Source of the DNA: Nocardioides sp. Kera G14
GTDB taxonomy: Bacteria > Actinomycetota > Actinomycetes > Propionibacteriales > Nocardioidaceae
Assembly: GCF_020715565.1 (NCBI RefSeq)
Contig: NZ_CP085839.1
Location: 434,001 to 498,000 of the forward strand
Direction of reading: 5' to 3'
DNA length: 64,000 bases
The notes under the pieces are model-generated. The model was given only the letters and a program-made list of their open reading frames with translations, was not told the origin of the DNA and made no database searches. Of the stretch, positions 3,690 to 32,901 are shown one piece after another (the stretch's first letter is position 1; the number at the start of each line of letters is the position of its first letter). Made by a program: the position numbers and the translations under genes.

Positions 3690-4535
3690 TCAGAGCGTGG
3701 TGGTGCCGGAGGCGACGATGACAGCCGGGCCCTGCAGCAGCACGCGGTCGTCCGAGGTCCACGTGATCGTCAGGCGGCCGCCGGGCACATCGACGGTGTA
3801 GGGGGTGTCCCGGGGTGCGCGGTCGGCATCGGCGGCGGCGACCATGACGGCGCAGGCACCGGTGCCGCAGGACTGCGTCTCGCCCGAGCCCCGCTCGTGG
3901 ACCCGCATCTGCACGTGGCGGTCGGCGACGCGGCGTACGAACTCGATGTTGACACCGTGCGGATAGAGCTCGTGGTCGTAGTGCGGCTCGTCGAGGAGCG
4001 GGCCGACGGGACCGTGCGGATCGAGCGAGTCGACGAAGGCGACGGCGTGCGGGTTGCCCATGTCGACATGGCGCGCGGACCACGTCCAGTCACCGATGCT
4101 CACAGCGGAGGAATCGAGCAGGATCGGAGTGCCGAGGTCCGCGACGAGCTCGTCGCCGATCACCGAGACGGTCTTGATCCCGGCGCGGGTCGCGATCGGC
4201 ACTGGCTGATCACGCGGCACGAGGCCGGCCTCGATGAGGTGCAGCACGAAGACCCTGACCCCGTTGCCGCACATTTCCGCGATGGAGCCGTCGGAGTTGC
4301 GGTAGTCCATGAACCACTCGGCGTGGTCCACGAGCGCGGCCTGCTCCGCGTCGATCCGGGCCATCGACTCGGTGCGGATCACGCGCAGCACGCCGTCGCC
4401 GCCGATGCCTGAACGCCTGTCACACAAGGCGATCACACGCTCGTCGGCGAGGGCGCCATGGATCGAGCCGTCATGGTCGGGCAGGATCACGAAGTCGTTC
4501 TCGGTGCCGTGGCCCTTGAGGAAGGGGTAGGCCAT
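3690..4535 (-). CDS. dapF: Diaminopimelate epimerase DapF
   Basis: A 281-residue enzyme converting LL- to meso-diaminopimelate, the last epimerisation before lysine and the peptidoglycan cross-link amino acid. Both catalytic cysteines are present: C89 in MCGNGVRV and C223 in SCGTGACAV. The N-terminal KGHGTENDFV is the family signature; the usual N is an E-N pair here. Its ATG overlaps the stop codon of the upstream PPOX gene by one base (TGATG), so it is probably translated by coupling at the end of a miaA-PPOX-dapF operon. The 113 nt downstream to 3577 contain the promoter of the small antitoxin-like gene. Confidence 0.97.
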   Translation of the reverse strand: MAYPFLKGHGTENDFVILPDHDGSIHGALADERVIALCDRRSGIGGDGVLRVIRTESMARIDAEQAALVDHAEWFMDYRNSDGSIAEMCGNGVRVFVLHLIEAGLVPRDQPVPIATRAGIKTVSVIGDELVADLGTPILLDSSAVSIGDWTWSARHVDMGNPHAVAFVDSLDPHGPVGPLLDEPHYDHELYPHGVNIEFVRRVADRHVQMRVHERGSGETQSCGTGACAVMVAAADADRAPRDTPYTVDVPGGRLTITWTSDDRVLLQGPAVIVASGTTTL

Positions 4536-5170
4536 CAGTAGAGGCCCTTCTCGTAGGCCTCGCCGTAGTAGGCGTCGAGCTCTTCGAGGCTGGCCTCGGC
4601 CTTCTCGTACTCCTTGGCGATGACCGCCCGGCGCGGCACCTCCGGAGCGCCGTCCCAGGTCTCAGGCTTCCAGAGCCCGCTGCGCAGGAAGGCCTTCGAG
4701 CAGTGGAAGAAGATGTCCTCGATCTCGACGACCATGGCGAGCACCGGCCGTTGTCCCTTGACGATCATCTCGTCGAAGAACGGTGCGTCGGAGACGAGCC
4801 GCGCGCGGCCGTTGATCCGCAGGGTGTCCGCGCGGCCGGGGATCAGGAAGAGCAGCCCGACATGGGGGTTGGCGAGCACGTTGCGGTAGCCGTCGGCCCG
4901 GCGGTTGCCCGGGCGCTCGGCGATGGCGATCGTGCGGTCGTCGATGACGTGGACGAGCTGCCCGGCCGGGTCGCCCTTCGGCGAGGCGTCGCAGGTGCCG
5001 TCGGCATCGGCCGTCGCGAGCACGCAGAACGGCGAGGCGGCCAGCCACTGGCGGTCGACGTCCAGCAGCGCCGGGCGGCCCTTCGTGGCGGCCCGCTCGT
5101 GCGGCTCGCCGAGCAGCGCGACGAGCTCGTCGACGCTCCGCACCTCGGCCCACGTGTCGTTGAGACTCAC
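4535..5170 (-). CDS. FMN-dependent PPOX-type flavoprotein (MSMEG_1061-like)
   Basis: A 211-residue split-barrel protein of the pyridoxamine-5'-phosphate-oxidase-like superfamily. The body LAASPFCVLATADADG, then DASPKGDPAG and the downstream IPGRADTLRINGRARL, fit the MSMEG_1061-type flavin/F420 oxidoreductases annotated across actinobacteria; the physiological substrate is unknown. The start is GTG 5170, in which GTGA overlaps the miaA stop by 4 nt, and the stop overlaps dapF by 1 nt, so the three genes form one tightly coupled unit. A longer frame upstream lies inside miaA and was not used. Confidence 0.85.
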   Translation of the reverse strand: MSLNDTWAEVRSVDELVALLGEPHERAATKGRPALLDVDRQWLAASPFCVLATADADGTCDASPKGDPAGQLVHVIDDRTIAIAERPGNRRADGYRNVLANPHVGLLFLIPGRADTLRINGRARLVSDAPFFDEMIVKGQRPVLAMVVEIEDIFFHCSKAFLRSGLWKPETWDGAPEVPRRAVIAKEYEKAEASLEELDAYYGEAYEKGLY

Positions 5171-6123
5171 CGGTCCAGAGTAGCGATCGCGGCCAGTGCC
5201 TTTTCGACCCGCGTGGGGTCGTCGAAGCGCACCCACACCACGCGGTGGTCCTTGCGGAACCACTGGTCCTGTCGCCGCGCGAACTGCCGCGTCTTGATGA
5301 TCGTCCGCTCGATCGCCTCCTCCCGCGTGAGTACGCCGCCGAGCAGCTGTGCCACCTCCCGGTAGCCGATCGCCGTCGAGGCGGTACGTGACGCCAGGAG
5401 CCCTCGCGCCATCAGGGCTTCGACCTCCTCGACGAAGCCGGACTCGAACATCTCGCGGACCCGTTGCGTGATGCGGGTCTCGAGGGTATCGCGGTCGATG
5501 TCGACGCCGATCTGGATCGAGTGGAGGTCGACGTACTCGTTGATGGGGAGGCGGGCGGAGAAGGGCTGCCCGGTCAGCTCGATCACCTCGAGGGCACGCA
5601 CGATACGGCGACCGTTGCCGGGGGTCATCGACTCGATCCGCTCGGCTCCGACGGGGTCAAGGGCCTGTAGGCGAGCCAACAGCGGCTGGTAGCCGCCCGT
5701 CTCGAGCTCGGCCTCCAGTCGTTCGCGGACCGCAGGATCGGTGCCAGGGAAGTCGAAGCGGTCGAGGATGGCACGGGTGTAGAGCGCGGAGCCCCCGACG
5801 AGCACCGGCGCCTTGCCGCGGGCGCGCAGGTCGACGATCAGGCCGCGCGCGAGCGCCTGGAAGTCGGCGACGCTGGCCTTCCGGTCGAGGTCGAGGAGGT
5901 CGAGCAGGTGGTGCGGGATGCCGCGCCTCTCGCTGACGGGCAGCTTGGCGGTGCCGATGTCCATCCCGCGGTAGACCTGCATCGCGTCGGTGTTGAGGAT
6001 CTCTCCGTCGAGCGCCTCGGCGAGGTCGAGCGAGAGCCCGGTCTTCCCTGCCGCGGTGGCCCCGACGACCGCCACGATGGGGATCGGCCGTTCCGCGTCA
6101 TGGCCTGCCCTCGTCCCCGTCAT
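5167..6123 (-). CDS. miaA: tRNA dimethylallyltransferase MiaA
   Basis: A 318-residue enzyme that transfers dimethylallyl from DMAPP to A37 of tRNAs reading UNN codons, the step before MiaB. Visible signatures: the P-loop GATAAGKTGLSL (about 22-33), DAMQVYRGMDIGTAK, the segment GGSALYTRAIL, and the C-terminal TIIKTRQFARRQDQW motif. Start taken as ATG 6123 (MTGTRAGH), which gives a length normal for the family. First gene of the miaA-PPOX-dapF unit. DMAPP comes from the MEP pathway, part of which (ispD, ispF) lies further right in this window. Confidence 0.97.
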   Translation of the reverse strand: MTGTRAGHDAERPIPIVAVVGATAAGKTGLSLDLAEALDGEILNTDAMQVYRGMDIGTAKLPVSERRGIPHHLLDLLDLDRKASVADFQALARGLIVDLRARGKAPVLVGGSALYTRAILDRFDFPGTDPAVRERLEAELETGGYQPLLARLQALDPVGAERIESMTPGNGRRIVRALEVIELTGQPFSARLPINEYVDLHSIQIGVDIDRDTLETRITQRVREMFESGFVEEVEALMARGLLASRTASTAIGYREVAQLLGGVLTREEAIERTIIKTRQFARRQDQWFRKDHRVVWVRFDDPTRVEKALAAIATLDR

Positions 6124-22003: not shown

Positions 22004-22092
22004 ACAGAGGATCGGTGGTTATGCACCGGTCTCTCCACAGCGGGACGCCACAGCCTCACCGACGCCCACCCCGAGAGGAGGCGAGATCAGCG

Positions 22093-22566
22093 ATGCACTG
22101 CCCCTACTGCCGGCACACCGACACCAAGGTCCTCGACTCCCGGGTGGCCGACGACGGCGGGTCCATTCGGCGTCGTCGTACGTGTGTGAACTGTGAGAAG
22201 CGGTTCACCACCGTCGAGCTCATGCAGCTCACGGTGCTCAAGCGCAGCGGAGCCACCGAGCCGTTCACCCGTGACAAGGCGATCGCCGGCGTCCGGAAGG
22301 CCTGCAAGGGCCGCCCGGTCACCGAGGACGCGCTCGCCTGCCTCGGGCAGGAGGTCGAGGACGCCCTGCGCACCAGCGGGTATGCCGAAGTCCCCGCCCA
22401 TGAGGTCGGGATGGCCATCCTCGGCCCGCTGCGCCGCCTCGACGAGGTGGCCTACCTCCGATTCGCCAGCGTCTACCGCCAGTTTGAGTCAGCCGACGAT
22501 TTCGAGTCCGAGATCTCGATGCTGCGCACCGAGCGGGCCCTGCTCAGTCCGACGACGTCGGGCTGA
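22093..22566 (+). CDS. nrdR: Transcriptional repressor NrdR
   Basis: A 157-residue regulator. The N-terminal zinc ribbon has C3, C6, C31 and C34 (MHCPYC ... TCVNCEKRF), and the ATP-cone domain follows (about 47-137: [20 protein letters not shown]). It senses dATP versus ATP and represses ribonucleotide reductase genes. ATG 22093 is the family start; the upstream frame crosses the NrdR boxes. It precedes nrdJ, its expected target, by 105 nt that contain a strong hairpin. Confidence 0.97.
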
Positions 22567-22577
22567 GCCCCCAGACG

Positions 22578-22615
22578 GGGCCGGGCAGGTTGTGGGGAAG
22601 CGACCTGCCCGGCCC
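22578..22615 (+). terminator. Strong hairpin between nrdR and nrdJ (terminator or attenuator)
   Basis: GGGCCGGGCAGGT (22578-22590) and ACCTGCCCGGCCC (22603-22615) form a perfect 13-bp stem with a 12-nt loop, 12 nt after the nrdR stop. There is no T-run. It either ends the nrdR transcript, in which case nrdJ needs its own promoter in the remaining 56 nt, or partially attenuates read-through. Confidence 0.7.
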
Positions 22616-22671
22616 TGACCGACCACAGCACCACCCACCACCACACACAGCACGCAGAGACGGGACGAGCA

Positions 22672-25599
22672 ATGACCGAGGGATCGATCGACACGGCGTC
22701 AGGCGCAGCCAGCGCAGCCGGGGCGGGCCTGACCATCGAGCGGGTCTTCAGCACCGAGGGTGTCCACCCCTACGACGAGATCACCTGGGAGCGACGCGAC
22801 GTCGTCCAGAAGAACTGGAAGACCGGCGACACGGTGTTCGAGCAGCTCGGGGTCGAGTTCCCCGACTTCTGGTCGATCAACGCCTCCACCATCGTCACGA
22901 CCAAGTACTTCCGCGGCGCGGTCGGCAGCGACAGCCGCGAGTGGAGCCTGAAGCAGCTCGTCGACCGGGTCGTCGACACCTACACGGCCGCGGGCAAGCA
23001 GTACGGCTACTTCGCCTCCGACGCGGACGCCGAGCTCTTCTCACACGAGCTCAAGTGGCTGCTCGTCCACCAGTACTTCTCGTTCAACAGCCCCGTGTGG
23101 TTCAACGTCGGCACCGACGCCCCGCAGCAGGTCTCGGCCTGCTTCATCCTCTCGGTCGACGACTCGATGGACTCGATCCTCAACTGGTACAAGGAGGAGG
23201 GCTTCATCTTCAAGGGCGGCTCCGGCGCCGGCCTCAACCTCTCGCGTATCCGCTCCTCCAAGGAGCTGCTGTCCAGTGGTGGTACGGCGTCCGGCCCGGT
23301 CTCCTTCATGCGTGGTGCTGACGCGTCGGCCGGCACGATCAAGTCCGGTGGCGCCACCCGTCGTGCCGCGAAGATGGTCGTCCTCGACGTGGACCACCCC
23401 GACATCGAGGAGTTCGTCGAGACCAAGGCGCGCGAGGAGGACAAGATCCGCGCGCTGCGTGACGCCGGCTTCGACATGGACCTCGGCGGCCGCGACATCA
23501 CCTCGGTCCAGTACCAGAACGCCAACAACTCCGTCCGCGTGACCGACGAGTTCATGCGCGCCGTCGAGAAGGGCGACAAGTTCGCCCTTCGTGGCCGCAA
23601 GCACGGCGAGGTCATCGAGGAGGTCGACGCCCGCGAGCTGTTCCACAAGATCGCCGTCGCCGCCTGGGAGTGCGCGGACCCGGGTCTGCAGTACGACGAC
23701 ACCATCAACGACTGGCACACCAACCCCGAGACCGGCCGGATCACCGCGTCCAACCCGTGCTCGGAGTACATGTCGCTCGACAACTCGTCCTGCAACCTGG
23801 CCTCGCTCAACCTGCTGAAGTTCCTCACGGACGACGACACGTTCGACGTCGTCAAGTTCCAGAAGGCCTCCGAGCTGATCTTCACCGCCATGGACATCTC
23901 GATCTCGTTCGCGGACTTCCCGACCGAGGCGATCGGCCAGACCACGCGTGACTACCGTCAGCTCGGCATCGGCTACGCCAACCTCGGCGCGCTGCTCATG
24001 GCCCTCGGCCTGGGCTACGACACCGATGGTGGCCGTACCCTCGCCGCCGCGATCACGTCGCTCATGACGGGCGCGGGTTACAAGCGCTCCGCCGAGCTCG
24101 CCGCCGTCGTCGGCCCGTACGCCGGCTACGCCCGCAACGCCGAGGCGCACCAGCGCGTCATGCGCAAGCACCAGGCCGCCAACGACCAGATCCGCTCGAT
24201 CAACTCGGTCGACGCCCCGGTCATCAAGGCCGCCGAGCGTGCGTGGAACGACGTCGTCACCCTCGGTGCGAAGAACGGCTTCCGCAACGCCCAGGCGTCG
24301 CTGCTCGCCCCGACCGGCACCATCGGCTTCATGATGGACTGCGACACCACCGGCATCGAGCCCGACTTCTCGCTCGTGAAGTTCAAGAAGCTCGTCGGCG
24401 GCGGCTCGCTGCAGATCGTCAACCTCACCATCCCGCGTGCCCTGCGCAAGCTCGGCTACTCCGACGAGCTGGTCGAGGCGATCGTTGCCTACATCGCCGA
24501 GCACGGCCACGTGGTCGGAGCCCCCGGGCTCAAGGAAGAGCACTACGAGGTCTTCGACACCGCCATGGGCAAGCGCGCGCTCGCCCCGATGGGCCACGTC
24601 CGCATGATGGCCGCCACCCAGCCGTTCCTGTCAGGCGCCATCTCCAAGACCGTCAACCTCCCCGAGAGCGCGACCGTCGAGGAGATCGAGCAGGTCTACA
24701 TGGACTCCTGGAAGCTCGGCCTCAAGGCGACCGCCGTCTACCGCGACAACTGCAAGGTCGGCCAGCCGCTCTCCGACGGCAAGGGCGACAACACGGGCAA
24801 GGACTCCAACGTCAAGGCTGAGGCTCCGGCCGCCGTCGAGACGAAGGTCGTCGAGAAGGTCGTCTACGCCCCGACCCGCAAGAAGATGCCGAAGTCGCGC
24901 GTCTCCCGCACCACCTCCTTCACGGTCGGTGGCGCCGAGGGTTACATGACCTCCGGTGCGCACGAGGACGGCACGCTCGGCGAGGTCTTCCTCAAGCTGG
25001 GCAAGCAGGGCTCGACCCTGGCCGGTGTCATGGACGCCTTCTCGATCGCGGTGTCGATCGGCCTGCAGTACGGCGTCCCGCTGGAGACCTACGTCTCGAA
25101 GTTCACCAACCTGCGCTTCGAGCCGGCCGGCCTCACCGACGACCCCGACGTGCGGATGTCGCAGTCCCTCATGGACTACGTCTTCCGTCGCCTGGCGCTC
25201 GACTACCTGCCGTTCGAGCAGCGTGCCGCCCTCGGCATCTACACCGCCGACGAGCGTCAGCGCTACCTCGAGACGGGCTCCTACGAGCCCGTCGAGGAGA
25301 CCGGCAACGCCGCCGAGCTGATGGCTGCGCCGGCCGCCCCGGTCGAGACGCACGACAGCGCCGAGAGCCACGTCCTCAGCGACGCCGAGCTCGACGCGGT
25401 CGAGACCCCCGCGGAGGAGGCTGTCACGGCCGCCGCCGTCGAGGCCCCGAAGACGGCACACACGACCGCCGAGCTCCTCGAGCTCATCAGCGGTTCTGCC
25501 ATCGACAGCCCGCTCTGCTTCACCTGCGGCACCAAGATGCGCCCCGCCGGCTCGTGCTACGTCTGCGAAGGCTGCGGCAGCACCTCCGGCTGCAGCTGA
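22672..25599 (+). CDS. nrdJ: Vitamin B12-dependent (class II) ribonucleotide reductase NrdJ
   Basis: A 975-residue adenosylcobalamin-dependent reductase making dNTP precursors with or without oxygen. Visible: the first redox cysteine region VSACFILSVDDSMDS, the active-site loop NPCSEYMSLDNSSCN with the radical Cys and Glu, the LAPTGTIGFMMDCDTTGIEP barrel motif, and the C-terminal CFTCGTKM ... CYVCEGCGSTSGCS zinc/redox tail. The acidic Ala-rich segment before the tail (about 880-945) is a flexible linker. No intein is inserted. NrdR control is suggested by the boxes upstream of nrdR. Confidence 0.97.
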   Translation: MTEGSIDTASGAASAAGAGLTIERVFSTEGVHPYDEITWERRDVVQKNWKTGDTVFEQLGVEFPDFWSINASTIVTTKYFRGAVGSDSREWSLKQLVDRVVDTYTAAGKQYGYFASDADAELFSHELKWLLVHQYFSFNSPVWFNVGTDAPQQVSACFILSVDDSMDSILNWYKEEGFIFKGGSGAGLNLSRIRSSKELLSSGGTASGPVSFMRGADASAGTIKSGGATRRAAKMVVLDVDHPDIEEFVETKAREEDKIRALRDAGFDMDLGGRDITSVQYQNANNSVRVTDEFMRAVEKGDKFALRGRKHGEVIEEVDARELFHKIAVAAWECADPGLQYDDTINDWHTNPETGRITASNPCSEYMSLDNSSCNLASLNLLKFLTDDDTFDVVKFQKASELIFTAMDISISFADFPTEAIGQTTRDYRQLGIGYANLGALLMALGLGYDTDGGRTLAAAITSLMTGAGYKRSAELAAVVGPYAGYARNAEAHQRVMRKHQAANDQIRSINSVDAPVIKAAERAWNDVVTLGAKNGFRNAQASLLAPTGTIGFMMDCDTTGIEPDFSLVKFKKLVGGGSLQIVNLTIPRALRKLGYSDELVEAIVAYIAEHGHVVGAPGLKEEHYEVFDTAMGKRALAPMGHVRMMAATQPFLSGAISKTVNLPESATVEEIEQVYMDSWKLGLKATAVYRDNCKVGQPLSDGKGDNTGKDSNVKAEAPAAVETKVVEKVVYAPTRKKMPKSRVSRTTSFTVGGAEGYMTSGAHEDGTLGEVFLKLGKQGSTLAGVMDAFSIAVSIGLQYGVPLETYVSKFTNLRFEPAGLTDDPDVRMSQSLMDYVFRRLALDYLPFEQRAALGIYTADERQRYLETGSYEPVEETGNAAELMAAPAAPVETHDSAESHVLSDAELDAVETPAEEAVTAAAVEAPKTAHTTAELLELISGSAIDSPLCFTCGTKMRPAGSCYVCEGCGSTSGCS

Positions 25600-25871: not shown

Positions 25872-26477
25872 ATGCACGTCCTTTCCACGCGCGCCGCCAA
25901 GATCACTGCCGCCTGCGCCACCCCGCTCGCCGTCGTCGCTGCGGGCGCCCTCGTCTGGCAGGGCTCGTACGCCGCCTTCACCGGCCAGACCCGCAACTCG
26001 GGCAACGACTGGTCCACCGGTTCGGTCGCGCTGACCGACGACGACAGGGGCGGGGCCATGTTCCAGGTCTCGAACATCACGCCCGGCGACACAGACTCCA
26101 AGTGCATCACCGTGACGGCGAACGCCTCGGTGCCGGGCACGGTCAAGGGCTACGCCGTCAACCCCACGTTCTCCTCCTCGACCCTCGCCCAGCACATCCT
26201 GGTGACCATCCAGGAAGGGAACGGCGGCTCGTTCCAGGACTGCACCGGCTTCCAGGCGGTCGGCGATGTGGCCCAGGACGTCTCCCTCGCCACGTTCGCC
26301 CAGGCCAGCAACTACTCCAACGCCGTCGGAGGGTGGGACGTCGCCGCTGGAACCCAGTCCCGGACCTACAAGATGACCTGGCGCTTCGACACGACCGGCA
26401 TGACCCAGACTGAGATCGACTCGTTGCAGGGCGCTCACGCGGGCCTCGACATGCAGTGGGAACTCCAGTCCAACTGA
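25872..26477 (+). CDS. TasA/camelysin-like secreted protein with SipW-type signal peptide
   Basis: A 201-residue protein from ATG 25872. It starts with a long hydrophobic signal (KITAACATPLAVVAAGALVW) followed by GSYAAFTGQTRNSGNDWSTG, the typical SipW-dependent cleavage region of TasA/CalY-type proteins, with cleavage predicted near A34/A35. The mature part is beta-rich with two cysteines (C107-region and FQDCTGFQ). Such proteins form surface or biofilm fibres in Bacillus; actinobacterial members are poorly studied. The next gene encodes the matching peptidase and its likely start overlaps this gene by 22 nt, a tasA-sipW-like pair. No close family member is recognisable beyond the fold class. 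Confidence 0.7.
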   Translation: MHVLSTRAAKITAACATPLAVVAAGALVWQGSYAAFTGQTRNSGNDWSTGSVALTDDDRGGAMFQVSNITPGDTDSKCITVTANASVPGTVKGYAVNPTFSSSTLAQHILVTIQEGNGGSFQDCTGFQAVGDVAQDVSLATFAQASNYSNAVGGWDVAAGTQSRTYKMTWRFDTTGMTQTEIDSLQGAHAGLDMQWELQSN

Positions 26478-27955
26478 CCGACGACGGACCACACCCCCGC
26501 CCCGTGTTCTCGGCTCATCTCGCACCCATCGCCGTCGCCGACCTCCGGCGATGGGTGCGACTGATCCTGCTCATCGCAGCCCGGGTCTACAGGGGGCTCC
26601 TGCTCACCTTCATCGTTGTCGCGCTGGCGCCCCTGGCCTTCGGTTGGGGGTCCTACGTCGTTCGCTCGGGGTCCATGGAGCCCGCCATCAACGTCGGCGA
26701 CATCGTCATCGCCCAGCCCATCCCTGCGAACGAAGACCCACGCCTGGGCCGCGTCATGGTGTTCACCAACCCGGCTCGAACTGATGGGGAGCTCCTCGTC
26801 CACCGGGTCGTGGAACGCCGTGACGACGGCACCTACACGACGGCAGGGGACAACAACGTGTTCCCCGACTCCACCCCGGCGCCACGAACCGCCTTCAAGG
26901 CCAGGGCGGTCCTCCTCGCGCCCTACGTCGGGCTCCCCGTCGTCTGGCTCAACCAGCACAACTTCCTCGCACTGGCCCTCTGGTTCTGGGCCACCATCGC
27001 AGCTTTCATCCTGGCGGGGGACCCCGACCGCAGGCGCCGGCGCAGGGGAAAGGATCAGGACAAGGGCACACGTGACGGCGACTCCCGCGGGACCGATACC
27101 TCCGCAGCGAGAACGCCGCGACGCGGGCATGCCGTTGCTCGCCAGGTCCTCACCGCGACTCTTGCCGGAGGGCTGGTCCTCGGAGCAGGCGGCGTCGCCA
27201 CCGCCACCTTCACCGACAGCACCACGAACTCCGGCAACATCTGGACAGTGGGCCGAACCGTCCAGCCGTACGTCGCCGCGGTCATGGCCGACAAGCCCTA
27301 TCTGTTCTATCTCCTGGACGAGCCGAGCGGTCAATGGGCCTCGGACTACAGCGGCAACCAGAACACCGGCCGCTACACCAGCATCGCGGGCTATCAGACG
27401 GCCGGCGCACTGCCCAACAACACCGGTTACGGGGTGACCCTGGGCTCCGGCAGCCGGATCATCCCCGACGGGAACGCCATCTCGTCGCCCGCGTCATTCA
27501 CCCTCGAAGCCTGGTTCAAGACCACGGCCAAGAGCGTCGCACCGTTGATCGGGTTCGAGGCGACCAAGGACGCCACCTCCTTCCCCGCTGACCGTCAGGT
27601 GCGCCTGGAGGCGACCGGCCAGATCTCCTACGGTGCCTGGGCTTCTGTCAGTCAGCATCCGCTGACCAGCGCGGCGAAGTACAACGACGGCACGTGGCAC
27701 CACCTCGCCGTCGCGGTCACCGGAAGTGGCCTGACCGAGAGTGCCGTCCTCTACGTCGACGGCAAGCAGGTCGCTTCCGGCACCACCTCATGGGTCAGCT
27801 CCTTCACGGGGTGGTGGCGCATCGGCGCCGGTACCGTTCCGGGCATCCTGAGCCTGCCCACCGCCGCCAGTTTCAACGGCAGCCTCGACAATGTGGCGAT
27901 CTACCACTCCGCCCTGTCCGCAGCCCGCATCGCTGCCCACTACAACGCCCGCTGA
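26456..27955 (+). CDS. SipW-type signal peptidase I fused to a SipW-like signal segment and LamG domain
   Basis: A single uninterrupted 499-residue frame. Residues 34-65 form a membrane span; 66-155 are an S26B (ER/SipW-type) signal peptidase with Ser73 in RSGSMEPAINVGD, His116 in LLVHRVVE in place of the bacterial Lys, and Asp132 in TAGDNN. A second span (about 158-188) and a basic linker (189-222) follow. Then comes a third span (VLTATLAGGLVLGAGGVA, about 230-248) ending in ATATFTDSTTNSGN, itself a SipW-type cleavage region, and a LamG/concanavalin-like jellyroll (about 275-499). The enzyme therefore seems to carry a substrate at its own C-terminus. GTG 26456 or GTG 26504 may be the start. 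It is coupled to the TasA-like gene. Confidence 0.8.
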   Translation: MGTPVQLTDDGPHPRPVFSAHLAPIAVADLRRWVRLILLIAARVYRGLLLTFIVVALAPLAFGWGSYVVRSGSMEPAINVGDIVIAQPIPANEDPRLGRVMVFTNPARTDGELLVHRVVERRDDGTYTTAGDNNVFPDSTPAPRTAFKARAVLLAPYVGLPVVWLNQHNFLALALWFWATIAAFILAGDPDRRRRRRGKDQDKGTRDGDSRGTDTSAARTPRRGHAVARQVLTATLAGGLVLGAGGVATATFTDSTTNSGNIWTVGRTVQPYVAAVMADKPYLFYLLDEPSGQWASDYSGNQNTGRYTSIAGYQTAGALPNNTGYGVTLGSGSRIIPDGNAISSPASFTLEAWFKTTAKSVAPLIGFEATKDATSFPADRQVRLEATGQISYGAWASVSQHPLTSAAKYNDGTWHHLAVAVTGSGLTESAVLYVDGKQVASGTTSWVSSFTGWWRIGAGTVPGILSLPTAASFNGSLDNVAIYHSALSAARIAAHYNAR

Positions 27956-28437: not shown

Positions 28438-29490
28438 ATGACGGTCGAAGACGACGGACTGATTGCCGGGTGGTACGCCACCCCTGACGGGCTGTCAGAG
28501 CGCTGGCACGATGGACGTCGCTGGACCGGCGTCACGCGTCCGGCGGGTCCGCGTCGGCGTCCAGTCCGTGGGCCGATGCCGCCGGGATGGTACGAGACTG
28601 GGGACACCCGCGGGCTGCGGTACTACGACGGCCGGCAATGGACTCGCCTCACCAAGGACTGGCAGGGCCGCCCGGCGGCGATGGACAGTCCGCACGCGTA
28701 TCACCGAGCGCATCAGGTGTCCCGTGGCCGGTCTCGCGCGAAGTCCAGATCGTCCTTCTACACCTGGCTGGTGCTCGGGGTCGTTGGCGTCCTGATCGTC
28801 TCTTGCGCGCTCGCTCTGACCCCGGGTGGAGCCGGCGACGCGGTGCGTCGCGCGATCGGAATCAAGGGACCGCAGCGCATCCTCCCTGCGGTCGTGCCGT
28901 CAGAAGCCTCGACCAGCTACGCCTTCATGACCACCGACTCGTCCGGCGATCCCGTCAGATACGACCCCTGCCGCCCGATCCACTACGCCATCAACCCCGA
29001 CGGCGCGCCTTCGGACTACGCCTCCTTCATCCAGTCGGCGGTCGCGGCTGCCCAGACGGCGTCCGGTCTTGAGTTCGTGTACGACGGCGTCTCGAGCGAC
29101 CTCTGGGCCAGCCGGCAAAACGGCACGGACGAGCGCCCCGTGCTCATCGGGTTCTCCGATGCGAAGGACGTCCCCGCCCTTGCCGAGGAGGAGTTCGGCA
29201 AGCACGTCGCTGGCGTGGGTGGCAGCCTCTCGGTCAGTGTTGAGGGTCGGCTCGCCCACTACGTCACCGGAGCGGTCGCGCTCGACCGCTCGTCCTTCGC
29301 GCGTCTCAGTTCGCGCGGAATGGTCGATGAGGAGCGCGCCATCGTCATGCACGAGCTCGGCCACGTCCTCGGCCTCGCCCACGTCGCTGACCCGAACCAG
29401 TTGATGTTCGCCGACAACGTCGGGAAGACGACGTACGGCGACGGTGATCTTGCGGGTCTGGCCATTGCCGGCGACGGGTCCTGCCGCTAG
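28438..29490 (+). CDS. Membrane-anchored matrixin-like metalloprotease with two DUF2510 domains
   Basis: A 350-residue protein. Two DUF2510 modules (AGWYATPDG ... RWHDGRRWTGV and PGWYETGDT ... RYYDGRQWTRL) occupy the first 75 residues, followed by one membrane span (FYTWLVLGVVGVLIVSCALAL, about 106-126). The outside domain ends with the metzincin zinc motif HELGHVLGLAH and a Met in PNQLMF that can serve as the Met-turn, so an active zinc protease is likely. DUF2510 is an actinobacterial cytoplasmic module of unknown role found at the N-terminus of membrane proteins. Substrate unknown. A small hairpin (29500-29515) follows. Confidence 0.85.
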   Translation: MTVEDDGLIAGWYATPDGLSERWHDGRRWTGVTRPAGPRRRPVRGPMPPGWYETGDTRGLRYYDGRQWTRLTKDWQGRPAAMDSPHAYHRAHQVSRGRSRAKSRSSFYTWLVLGVVGVLIVSCALALTPGGAGDAVRRAIGIKGPQRILPAVVPSEASTSYAFMTTDSSGDPVRYDPCRPIHYAINPDGAPSDYASFIQSAVAAAQTASGLEFVYDGVSSDLWASRQNGTDERPVLIGFSDAKDVPALAEEEFGKHVAGVGGSLSVSVEGRLAHYVTGAVALDRSSFARLSSRGMVDEERAIVMHELGHVLGLAHVADPNQLMFADNVGKTTYGDGDLAGLAIAGDGSCR

Positions 29491-29738: not shown

Positions 29739-29941
29739 CACAACTCGACGACCTGCTCCAGACGCACCTTGTCGATGACAAGGACATCCGGTGGGACATG
29801 GACGAGGTCGACGGCGAACTGCTGGGGGTTGTCGTGATCGCTCACTACGGTCTGCCCGGCAGGTCGAAGCCGTGGTCGCCGTACGGCTTGCGTGCCTACG
29901 ACTGGTGCGAGGTCGAGCGGGTGATCTCGATGGAGCGTTAA
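29735..29941 (+). CDS. Small acidic ORF of 68 residues, unknown function
   Basis: GTG 29735 opens VTQLDDLLQTHLVDDKDIRW and continues to VERVISMER. The sequence is acidic, with several aromatic residues near the C-terminus (PWSPYGLRAYDWCEVE), and looks like a folded small protein. It overlaps the preceding small frame by GTGA and its stop overlaps the stop of the convergent DUF3883 gene by 2 nt. It lies at the left edge of a lower-GC block and could belong to the neighbouring defence-type cassette, though on the opposite strand. No family recognised. Confidence 0.45.
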   Translation: MTQLDDLLQTHLVDDKDIRWDMDEVDGELLGVVVIAHYGLPGRSKPWSPYGLRAYDWCEVERVISMER

Positions 29942-30759
29942 GCCGGACCCGCGAGGAAGCTTTGCGGCTCGAGCCAGACGTTCTCGCTTAGAGGACCGGC
30001 GAGCCGGTACTGCCGCGTGCGAGCGCCGAAGTCGAAGAGGCGGCGAAGCTCGAAGGCCACTCCCGCCTCTTCGGAGAAGTCGATCTCGTTCTTCGTCAGG
30101 TAGAAGGGCACCTCGCCCGCGCCGCGCGTGGTCTTGACCTCGATGAAGCGCTCGGTCTCAGTGCCCGGATCGAACGACCTCACGTCGTAACCGAGGCCGT
30201 CGCCCACCTCCACTGAGGTGTGAACCACCTCGGCCGCAAGATCAGAGCGCCCCGCGCGCTCGAGCACGGCCCGTTCGAAGTCGACGACCGCACGTTCCCC
30301 TGCGAGGCCAAGAGAGCGATTGCCTGCTTCAACGGCCGCGTAGTCCACCCGACGAGGCGAGCGCGGACGGCGGGAGGTTGGCCGATCTATGCGGGGCGGC
30401 GCCTCGATCGGGCCAAGCGTTGGATCGACATCCACGGCGGGTGCCTCCACCGCTCGCATCATGTCGTGGCGAAGATCGGCGGATTGCTCGAAGCGGTTGG
30501 TGACACGCATGCGGAGCGAGTTCTGAACGTTCCGGCGGGGCTTGTAGCCGTTGATCCAGCGAGCACCAAGCTCGTCAAGGACCGCGGAGATATTCTGGAA
30601 CTTGAACTCTAGCGAGCCGTCAGAGCGGGCAACGCGCGACGCAAGCTCCCTCCTGTGTTCGGTCTTGGAGTACCTCTCGCCGGACAGTTCCAGGGTGAGC
30701 ATGCGGAAGTAGTAATCGACCACGAGGTCGACTTCGCGATCCGACCAGCTCTCAGCCAC
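29938..30759 (-). CDS. DUF3883 protein with predicted PD-(D/E)xK nuclease fold
   Basis: A 273-residue protein from GTG 30759. The N-terminal 100 residues (WSDREVDLVVDYYFRML ... FQNISAVLDELG ... INGYKPRRN) are a helical module often found before DUF3883. The C-terminal DUF3883 part shows GLAGERAVVDFE (E155), GYDVRSFD (D192) and FIEVKTT (E207, K209), which line up as a PD-(D/E)xK-type active site. DUF3883 domains occur in restriction and phage-defence proteins. It follows the NERD-helicase gene by 54 nt on the same strand; together they look like a two-gene nuclease-helicase cassette. Base composition is visibly lower in GC than the flanks. Confidence 0.75.
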   Translation of the reverse strand: MAESWSDREVDLVVDYYFRMLTLELSGERYSKTEHRRELASRVARSDGSLEFKFQNISAVLDELGARWINGYKPRRNVQNSLRMRVTNRFEQSADLRHDMMRAVEAPAVDVDPTLGPIEAPPRIDRPTSRRPRSPRRVDYAAVEAGNRSLGLAGERAVVDFERAVLERAGRSDLAAEVVHTSVEVGDGLGYDVRSFDPGTETERFIEVKTTRGAGEVPFYLTKNEIDFSEEAGVAFELRRLFDFGARTRQYRLAGPLSENVWLEPQSFLAGPA

Positions 30760-30813
30760 CCGTGTGTTCTATCAGCAGACGGGTGGCCGGGCGGAACGTT
30801 TGACGGAGGTCGA

Positions 30814-32901
30814 TCAAAACCGGGACGGCGAAGTGTTTGTTGGCCGGTCGAGGTAACCAAGCCAGAGTCCATCCCGGGCACGCGTCATTCCGACGAAGAG
30901 TTCACGCCGCAGGCGTTCGCAGCGCTCCTGATAGGCGGCCGCCGTCTCGCCTGACCAGATATCCGGAAGGCCCGGCTCGAGTTCCGGCATCAGCACGTAC
31001 TTGAACTCAAGTCCCTTCGCCCGTTTGATTGTCCCGACTTTGAGCTGATCGGTCGTCGTGCCGTCGTACTTCTCCAAGTCCACGACTGGAACGCCCTTGC
31101 GGGCGAGGTCCTTGGCCCAGTCGTCCGCATCCTTCGAACGGAGGAAGAGGACGGCCATGTCGCCCCACGCGACGTCGAGCCGCTCGTGAGTAGCGCGAAT
31201 CTGCGTGAGAACCTTCGCCTCGAGAGCTGTCCGTGATCGCTCCGTCACGATGAGCGGCGGGTAACCATGTCTGACGACCTCCGGTGCCCGGTCACCCGAG
31301 ATGGGGTTGTCCTCGAGGTCATCGAACATGTCTCCGGCGACGGCGCTCGCCGCGGTGTCCAGAATCTCTTTGGTGTTTCTGTAGTTGACCCGAAGGACAC
31401 TGGCCCGACCCTTGACGCTGATGCCAGCCTCAGTGAGTCGGAATCCGCCTGGGTAGACGGCCTGCTGACCGTCGCCGATGAGGAGAAGTCCGTTGGGTCG
31501 ATCGGGCGCCAGCGCCGTCAACAGGTGGAGCCCAACGAGGTTGAGGTCTTGTACCTCGTCGATAACGACGCCTCCGAACGTGAAGAGGTCGGGCGCATCT
31601 TGAACTGCCTCGTGGGCGAGGATCAGTAAGTCGTTGAAGTCGTGAACGTTCGCGGCGTCGAGGTTCGCCTGATAGGCGATGTAGAGGTCCCACGCATGTC
31701 CGCGCTGTTCAGTGGTGAGCCGGGTCTTCCGGCCGATCCGATCGAGTTCCTTGTATGCGGAGAAGTCGATCAGCCCACGTCCCTTGATGACGTAGTCGAC
31801 TTCTTCGGCCCAATACTGCTTGCGCTCATCAATTGAGCGAAGGGCCGCGACCGAGGGTGTTTCGCGCCATGCCTTATCGAACGCCCGGCGGGCTCTGTAT
31901 GGGTCGAGCCTGATCTCGTCGGATCGGCCGGCTTCCCGCAGGATGGTGTGCGCGAGTCGGTGGATCCCAGTGAATTCAATGTTGTCAGCCGCGGTGGGGG
32001 AGAGCCGGCGCGCGAGTGAACCGAGCACCACGGGAAGAGTTCTCACGAAGCTGACAAACAGAATCGGGTCCTTAGACCGCTCGGCCAGGTAGACGGCTCG
32101 ATGAAGGCCGACGGAAGTCTTGCCTGTACCTGCAGGCCCGCCAATGCGGGCCGGCCCCGTCCAATGCGCCCGAACGACCTTGTTCTGATCGGGGTGGAGA
32201 AATGTCATCCAGTCTTCGATCGGTCCTGCCAGTTCGCGTTCGAGCAATGCCGCGGTGAGCGCCTCCACGTCGATCAGAGCCTCGGGCTCTGACCCGCGAA
32301 GCCGTGGATGAGGGCGCCGCCTCCGGTTCTCTTCCGTCGGCTCGAACTCCGGACAGGCTTCTTCGACAAGCTTGCCAATCTCTCGAATCTTGTCGGCGGT
32401 AAGTCTTCTCCGCTGCTGCTGAAGCCAAGTAATCAGCCCGGCGTCGCCGATTGCAGTGGCGTGGCCGACTGGGAACGGACCGAAGCGACGATTATCGAAG
32501 GCGAGCACGACCGAGATTGATGCGCGGGTCAAGCCACAGGGCCCAACGCTTTCGACTATCTGTCCTGCGAGAGTGTCCAGTGATTCGATCGTGTCGGTTT
32601 CGTCTTCCTCCCCGCGGAATAGGACTCCCCGCTCGACGTAGACCTCTTCCCAAGACTTGGCGTCGATGACCACCACGCCGGGTGGTCCGATGAGGATGAA
32701 GTCCACGTTCGCGCGCTTCGATCCGGGCCAGCGTCGGTCCTCCAAGACCATCCAGCCGTCGACTTCAAGTGTTCGCAAGACCACGGCAAGCCGCTGTTCG
32801 TAGTCGGCTCCTTTTTCGAAGTGAAGCGCTCGTTCTCTCTCACGCATCGCTCGTGCCCGCGACTGGGCAGCACTGCGCCGTGCCGAGTCTCCTGCTGCCA
32901 C
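30814..32901 (-). CDS. NERD-domain SF1 (UvrD/Rep-like) helicase
   Basis: A 695-residue protein from GTG 32901, behind a strong ribosome binding site (GGGAGG). The N-terminal NERD domain (about 31-150) keeps nuclease-type residues E35, D67 and D80-A-K82 (VDFILIGPPGVVVIDAK). The SF1 motor has Walker A GGPAGTGKT (254-262), motif II VIDEVQD (446-452), motif III LLLIGDGQQAVYP, VNYRNTKEI, and motif VI GMTRARDGLWLGY. NERD-helicase fusions are recurrent in phage-defence loci (for example nuclease-helicase immunity proteins). With the DUF3883 gene it forms a likely defence unit. Lower GC than the surroundings and the lack of metabolic neighbours suggest horizontal acquisition. Confidence 0.85.
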   Translation of the reverse strand: MAAGDSARRSAAQSRARAMRERERALHFEKGADYEQRLAVVLRTLEVDGWMVLEDRRWPGSKRANVDFILIGPPGVVVIDAKSWEEVYVERGVLFRGEEDETDTIESLDTLAGQIVESVGPCGLTRASISVVLAFDNRRFGPFPVGHATAIGDAGLITWLQQQRRRLTADKIREIGKLVEEACPEFEPTEENRRRRPHPRLRGSEPEALIDVEALTAALLERELAGPIEDWMTFLHPDQNKVVRAHWTGPARIGGPAGTGKTSVGLHRAVYLAERSKDPILFVSFVRTLPVVLGSLARRLSPTAADNIEFTGIHRLAHTILREAGRSDEIRLDPYRARRAFDKAWRETPSVAALRSIDERKQYWAEEVDYVIKGRGLIDFSAYKELDRIGRKTRLTTEQRGHAWDLYIAYQANLDAANVHDFNDLLILAHEAVQDAPDLFTFGGVVIDEVQDLNLVGLHLLTALAPDRPNGLLLIGDGQQAVYPGGFRLTEAGISVKGRASVLRVNYRNTKEILDTAASAVAGDMFDDLEDNPISGDRAPEVVRHGYPPLIVTERSRTALEAKVLTQIRATHERLDVAWGDMAVLFLRSKDADDWAKDLARKGVPVVDLEKYDGTTTDQLKVGTIKRAKGLEFKYVLMPELEPGLPDIWSGETAAAYQERCERLRRELFVGMTRARDGLWLGYLDRPTNTSPSRF

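Follow-up and report, generated by a model that had tools for sequence, protein, structure and literature searches.

We find that a gene of Nocardioides sp. Kera G14 joins a SipW-type signal peptidase to a presumed substrate of its own in a single reading frame. The conserved, predicted-unstructured stretch that follows the presumed cleavage site is similar to the mature N-terminus of the TasA-like protein encoded next to it, which is the new observation of this work. Architecture, conservation, the fold of the neighbour and the shared segment were all computed directly. The best reading of the locus, to which we assign a probability of about one half, is that the chain combines a SipW-type peptidase with a TapA-like fibre starter carrying a lectin-type head.

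A peptidase and a LamG domain share one frame

The genome of Nocardioides sp. Kera G14 is a single 3.47 Mb contig, 99.5% complete. Within the window, the whole stretch of 64,000 nucleotides that was analysed, an open frame of 499 codons at 26456..27955 (+) encodes an S26B peptidase, a SipW-type signal and a LamG domain, as judged from TIGR02228 and Pfam matches and from a database copy of the protein. Its parts follow in the order membrane helix, S26B domain, second membrane segment, Arg-rich loop, third segment with a SipW-type site, and LamG. The original prediction of one uninterrupted frame holds with two small corrections: the GTG at 26456 overlaps the upstream TasA-like gene, whose stop ends at 26477, and the end at 27955 counts the stop codon. 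The database copy (P0001, 483 amino acids) fits a start at GTG 26504, which lies 26 nt downstream of the stop of the TasA-like gene and is the probable start of the fused gene. Codons 135-265 contain no in-frame ATG, GTG or TTG, in line with the claim that no internal start separates the two halves; the LamG half with its signal could thus not be started separately in this frame, and its separate translation is ruled out.

The first membrane helix (26534..26641, +) lies inside a predicted helix of residues 27-62. It is followed by the S26B catalytic domain (about residues 66-156; 26651..26923, +), which would face the outside, and by a second membrane segment (about residues 160-187; 26933..27016, +) with predicted helices at 160-166 and 170-187. 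TIGR02228 matches residues 48-169 with 64.8 bits against a cut-off of 51.85, which places the protein among the S26B or ER-type signal peptidases, and the fused peptidase is the only match above this cut-off in the genome. The human SEC11C and SEC11A chains are also matched by profile (7p2q, 9.8e-14; 7p2p, 1.8e-12), and the Bacillus SipW equivalog profile NF046067 gives the fused protein 40.2 bits, below its cut-off of 190. The catalytic residues Ser73 (26672), His116 (26801) and Asp132 (26849), all on the + strand, are conserved in an alignment of 83 rows (A1), at 82/82 (one row has a gap in the Ser73 region), 83/83 and 83/83, with the order Ser, His, Asp kept. The complete peptidase that had been predicted, with its three residues at these positions, is thereby confirmed.

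The C-terminal passenger is a confidently modelled LamG jellyroll with a ConA-like lectin fold (residues 271-499; 27266..27952, +). Pfam Laminin_G_3 (PF13385) matches residues 336-493 at 2.5e-21, with 76.8 bits against a gathering score of 27.6. The Foldseek matches of the domain are lectin-type beta-sandwiches, and four PHROGs matches all fall inside this half. The head may bind sugar. Of the earlier description of this half as an adhesin-like domain, the LamG assignment stands; the domain is probably more than a free-standing adhesin, as its start resembles that of the TasA-like neighbour.

Other genes surround the pair. An NrdR-type repressor and a class II ribonucleotide reductase (22015-25599, +) lie directly upstream of the TasA-like gene. 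Near the fibre genes, a DUF2510 protein (28438-29490, +) shows matrixin-like similarity (PF00413, 1.4e-5) and looks by eye as if it spans the membrane. At 29938-32901 (-), a protein with a NO VEIN C-terminal domain (PF13020) stands beside a large frame that looks nuclease-helicase-like by eye, a possible defence pair.

The passenger starts like the TasA-like neighbour

The upstream gene (25872..26477, +) encodes a TasA-like (camelysin-like) secreted protein of 201 amino acids, a probable fibre subunit. VIA-align ranked TasA first for this protein and assigned it the TasA fold; in plain Foldseek, TasA (5of1) came only third (E 1.8e-3). The TasA/camelysin profile PF12389 gives it 19.0 bits against a gathering score of 22.5, 11 of the 50 members of its alignment (A2) match that profile at E 0.01 or better, and a PDB sequence search with the TasA-like alignment returned one non-significant match (E 0.15). 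The claim that a TasA-like gene adjoins the fusion is thus borne out by fold, though PF12389 stays below its cut-off. The mature N-terminus of the neighbour is conserved and predicted to be unstructured, with pLDDT below 50 at residues 29-49; in A2, residues 35-50 (25974..26021, +) are the equivalent of the TasA donor-strand region.

In the fused protein, the third membrane segment and the presumed cleavage site, Ala248-x-Ala250 / Thr251-Phe252, occupy 27146..27205 (+). Residues 251-266 beyond it (27206..27253, +) form a donor-strand-like segment that is conserved though its pLDDT is below 50. Between 83 fusion rows and 50 TasA-like rows, the commonest residue is identical at 10 of the 16 positions from P1' to P16' and then at 0 of 5, with the shared pattern A-F-T-x-x-T-R-N-x-G-N-x-W-x-x-G. 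A TapA-like initiator would be expected to begin with a stretch similar to the donor strand of the TasA-like protein that it serves, and such an N-terminus is found here. According to excerpts of PMC9674648, the donor strand of Bacillus TasA comprises residues 28-38 and enters the next subunit, and F29, I32 and F39 make hydrophobic contacts. Phe252 and Trp263 of the fusion are at P2' and P13', and TasA F29 and F39 at P2' and P12', a spacing that differs by one.

The likeness is closest between adjacent genes. Ten loci with two kinds of TasA-like gene gave 13 pairs, in which the passenger was compared with its direct neighbour and with the TasA-like gene beside an ordinary peptidase. The passenger was closer to its direct neighbour in 12 of the 13 pairs counted from P1', and in 11 beyond P4', with one tie and one loss; in the first pair of locus L053 the other TasA-like gene fits slightly better (25 versus 26), and L221 ties beyond P4'. 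When pairings were shuffled, 0 of 20000 trials came up to the observed mean from P1' and 1 of 20000 beyond P4'; a wider pairing test gave 0 of 5000, both in the window's clade (33 of its 34 fused rows) and in the full set (46 of 48 fused rows, L067 and L153 left out). As the loci are related, these permutation counts overstate the evidence.

The shared segment could also be an extended recognition motif of the peptidase, or a remnant of shared ancestry in the signal region. The sole purpose of cleavage would then be to release LamG as a secreted adhesin or surface lectin, and the segment would play no part in building a fibre, a reading which we regard as unlikely, though it is the best of the alternatives. 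It would account for a motif that starts at the cleavage site and for the adjacency of peptidase and TasA-like gene in 44 of 49 rows, and it agrees with a report, in the excerpted text of PMC10269814, that residues P3 to P4' decide whether LepB cuts TasA. However, the likeness extends to P16' and the preference for the own neighbour persists beyond P4' (11/13), both past the P3-P4' stretch discussed for LepB.

The junction is conserved like a folded domain

The Arg-rich linker before the third segment (residues 188-230; 27017..27145, +) would be cytoplasmic and form the n-region of the internal signal; in 76 of 83 rows it has 15-75 amino acids and a net positive charge. The predicted third helix spans residues 224-243, and residues 244-267 have pLDDT below 50. 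In A1, Ala248 (P3) is found in 73/83 rows, Ala250 (P1) in 80/83, Phe or Tyr at 252 (P2') in 83/83 and Trp or Phe at 263 in 82/83. The wider clade (33 of 34 fused rows, L067 left out) has 28 Phe, three Tyr, one Trp and one Met at P2', and the Met, in L262, runs against the rule of an aromatic P2'. Conservation per column amounts to 2.77 bits for residues 248-266, 2.93 for the catalytic domain, 2.66 for LamG, and 1.81 for both the linker and the third segment. The junction is thus conserved like the folded domains and unlike the linker and third segment, despite its predicted disorder.

A third span with a SipW-type substrate signal, in frame behind the peptidase, had been predicted; the helix, the conserved A-x-A and the aromatic P2' agree with it, and the anatomy is consistent with cleavage. 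The SipW-type substrate model TIGR04088 does not match at the locus, and its one match in the rest of the genome is weak (10.9 bits against a cut-off of 19); what identifies the passenger as a putative SipW substrate is therefore its motif, its topology and its likeness to the neighbour. The mutual placement of the domains, including that of the active site and the cleavage site, is not fixed by the model of the fusion (pTM 0.54). Excerpts of PMC10269814 report that E. coli LepB cleaves sites with an aromatic P2' poorly and that SipW cleaves TasA, with other residues from P3 to P4' contributing as well. The passenger therefore looks made for the kind of peptidase that carries it.

If no cleavage took place, the third segment would be a permanent anchor displaying LamG (or an Ig-type or ice-binding-like domain) and tying together peptidase, fibre base and cell surface, which we hold to be quite unlikely. 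The three-segment topology would put LamG outside in either case, fibres need a cell anchor, and TapA is reported, in the part of PMC10151520 consulted, to colocalise with the membrane. Yet a pure anchor needs neither the Ala at P1 (80/83) nor the aromatic P2' (83/83), and it is the cleavage site that is kept while the membrane segment itself is poorly conserved.

The fusion is recurrent and its passengers vary

The search for the same architecture in other actinobacteria, proposed along with the original prediction, was successful. Besides the window's own copy, 82 of 97 database matches were aligned as relatives with both halves (A1), and among the matches listed both halves share one frame in at least 15 of the 147 genomes from the order, a count that includes the window's genome. 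Most matches cover one half only and 48 of the 147 genomes match neither half, so the distribution is patchy. The closest named relatives among the matches listed are Nocardioides; among the best 80 of 394 confirmed stretches, the named hosts of LamG fusions are Nocardioides pelophilus, N. lacusdianchii, N. astragali, Pimelobacter, Frigoribacterium and Allobranchiibius.

The fetched loci, partly picked for resemblance to the fusion, contain 164 S26B frames. Forty-eight were flagged as fused, that is, with 80 or more residues beyond a third segment and its SipW-type motif; one of them, L249, is false by eye, having no SipW-type junction, and in L042 and L045 the motif picked by the classifier falls in the second membrane segment, short of the true junction. 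In a class-wide draw of 197 genomes, 12 of 82 S26B frames were fused; counting the window, it is 13 of 83. A Pfam scan of ten frames with passengers other than LamG gave Big_7-type Ig domains in L045 and L077, an ice-binding-like domain in L098, and passengers with no Pfam family over its cut-off in L051, L052, L053, L063, L064, L153 and L240. The L098 peptidase lies at 3932-5311, and its passenger matches PF11999 at 1.5e-27.

In a tree of 165 peptidase domains, built on only 139 columns and with 66 open forks, the fused forms fall mainly into two clades, plus L153. The first (40 rows, support 100) holds 27 LamG fusions, 7 with other passengers and 6 labelled unfused, the last including L075, which ends at a contig end, and L273, a split case; the second (19 rows, support 97) holds 13 with other passengers and 6 labelled unfused. 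The fused or unfused label requires 9 changes on the tree (at least 5 of them forced by starred branches), against a mean of 42.1 when shuffled. This pattern and the clade contents suggest that the fusion probably arose more than once and that passengers were exchanged within one clade. Judged from these sequences, the fusion architecture is recurrent and modular.

In the 44 of 49 rows mentioned above, the distance from an upstream TasA-like frame to the estimated gene start is about -60 to +250 nt. The exceptions are L153 (weak, at 314), L040 (at 707), L067, L037, where a separate inspection found a TasA-like frame adjacent, and the false L249. A looser test for an upstream SipW-type frame, which dropped rows with less than 1200 nt upstream and so counted 48 of the 49 fused and 107 unfused frames, was positive in 48/48 and 88/107, respectively. 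Since unfused frames also score this often and some matches are chance, the neighbourhood alone is no marker of fusion.

Several loci depart from the common layout. Five of 11-14 kb (L052, L053, L059, L063 and L064), all from relatives of the same family, hold two sets side by side: a short SipW-type peptidase of the ordinary kind and its TasA-like gene, and a further TasA-like gene and the passenger-bearing peptidase. In L238, L249, L255 and L274, S26B peptidases have another long C-terminal part beyond a later membrane segment, with no SipW-type site seen by eye; this part may be DUF5305-like. L266 and L275 have passengers after an ordinary-looking Ala-x-Ala site that lacks the aromatic residue, and an extra hydrophobic C-terminal segment.

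The C-terminal domain might instead target or regulate the peptidase, for example by binding wall glycan where fibres form, and be an accessory part of the enzyme and not its substrate. The domain is on the peptidase's own chain and several passengers are generic binding folds, but passengers vary within one clade while the junction is kept, and the copy of the TasA-like N-terminus would be left unexplained; we consider this very improbable. That the fusion is a sequencing or annotation artefact has next to no probability: the one assembly in which the two halves were seen to occupy separate, overlapping frames comes from a metagenome (L273, 8-1767), and its peptidase frame crosses an unread base in a repetitive stretch, whereas the 82 aligned one-frame relatives, the 15 or more one-frame genomes among the 147 of the order and the single-contig genome here contradict two separate genes joined by a sequencing error, rule out a chance or frameshift fusion and bear out the claim that the fusion point has no frameshift.

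A model for a fibre starter built into its peptidase

We then propose a model in which the locus would encode a fibre system in two genes, the first for a TasA-like subunit and the second for a SipW-type peptidase with a TapA-like partner on its own chain. Its topology, cleavage in cis or in trans, strand donation and nucleation are what we infer from the features above. Two helices would hold the peptidase in the membrane and, as its anatomy suggests, leave the active site on the outside; the Arg-rich loop would lead into the third hydrophobic segment, which would act as an internal signal of the SipW type. Cleavage after Ala250 may occur in cis or be done by a sister copy of the peptidase. 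The same enzyme, the only TIGR02228 match above the cut-off in the genome, would also process the TasA-like neighbour in trans. The cut would free the LamG domain with the new N-terminus TFTDSTTNSGNIWTVG, resembling the mature TasA-like start, and this N-terminus could donate a strand to the first TasA-like subunit. Since LamG has a complete fold of its own, it probably cannot accept a donor strand. The LamG part may therefore start or cap the fibre, in the manner proposed for TapA, the presumed starter of TasA fibres in Bacillus, and add a lectin-like head; the likeness of the first 16 residues after the cut points to such a starting or capping role.

It is tempting, if only tentatively, to go a step further and regard the fusion as a self-activating starter. 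The peptidase would have to cut its own third segment to expose the donor strand, and each enzyme would yield exactly one lectin-headed nucleator for the TasA-like fibre that it processes; such fusions would have arisen at least twice in Actinomycetota, with exchangeable heads.

If the model is right, TasA-like fibres exist in actinobacteria and come with their starter built in, and a signal peptidase is able to bear a substrate of its own. The fusion would offer a natural one-enzyme-one-substrate pair for the study of site choice by ER-type signal peptidases, and a hint as to where a TapA-like function could hide in genomes without tapA. It would also be a modular route by which different heads (LamG, Ig-type, ice-binding-like) are placed on one type of fibre.

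Comparison with known systems

The open-access papers searched describe no such fusion, in agreement with the original view that a peptidase-substrate fusion is not a characterised system. SEC11A and SEC11C belong to the same peptidase family by profile, and their chains of 198 and 211 residues leave no space for such a C-terminal substrate domain. The minor pilin PilC of Streptococcus sanguinis (7oa8) likewise has a lectin-type beta-sandwich in a minor filament subunit, a match of fold that serves only as a comparison of how the part might work. PilC belongs to a type IV pilus, with another secretion and assembly route.

In Bacillus cereus, the excerpts of PMC13082335 describe sipW-tasA, calY and CapP, that is, TasA-type subunits and an accessory chaperone-like protein, all said to be SipW-processed, much as proposed here; the genes there are separate, and CapP is not joined to the peptidase.

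The closest parallel is the tapA-sipW-tasA system of Bacillus subtilis, as far as the available parts of PMC9674648 and PMC10151520 describe it. In both, an S26B peptidase lies beside a TasA-fold gene, together with a second SipW-type substrate that has a donor-strand-like N-terminus and a complete fold. The N-terminus of TapA resembles the TasA donor strand and may give the first strand (PMC9674648, excerpts), and TapA, with its complete fold, is seen as an initiator for that reason (PMC10151520, excerpts). The two systems differ in that the Bacillus SipW and camelysin models score below their cut-offs here, and in the head, which is LamG here (elsewhere Ig-type or ice-binding-like) and thus departs from the Ig fold of TapA. 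In both, peptidase and second substrate are tightly linked: in Bacillus the stop codon of tapA overlaps the start of sipW (PMC10151520, excerpts), whereas here the two are one chain.
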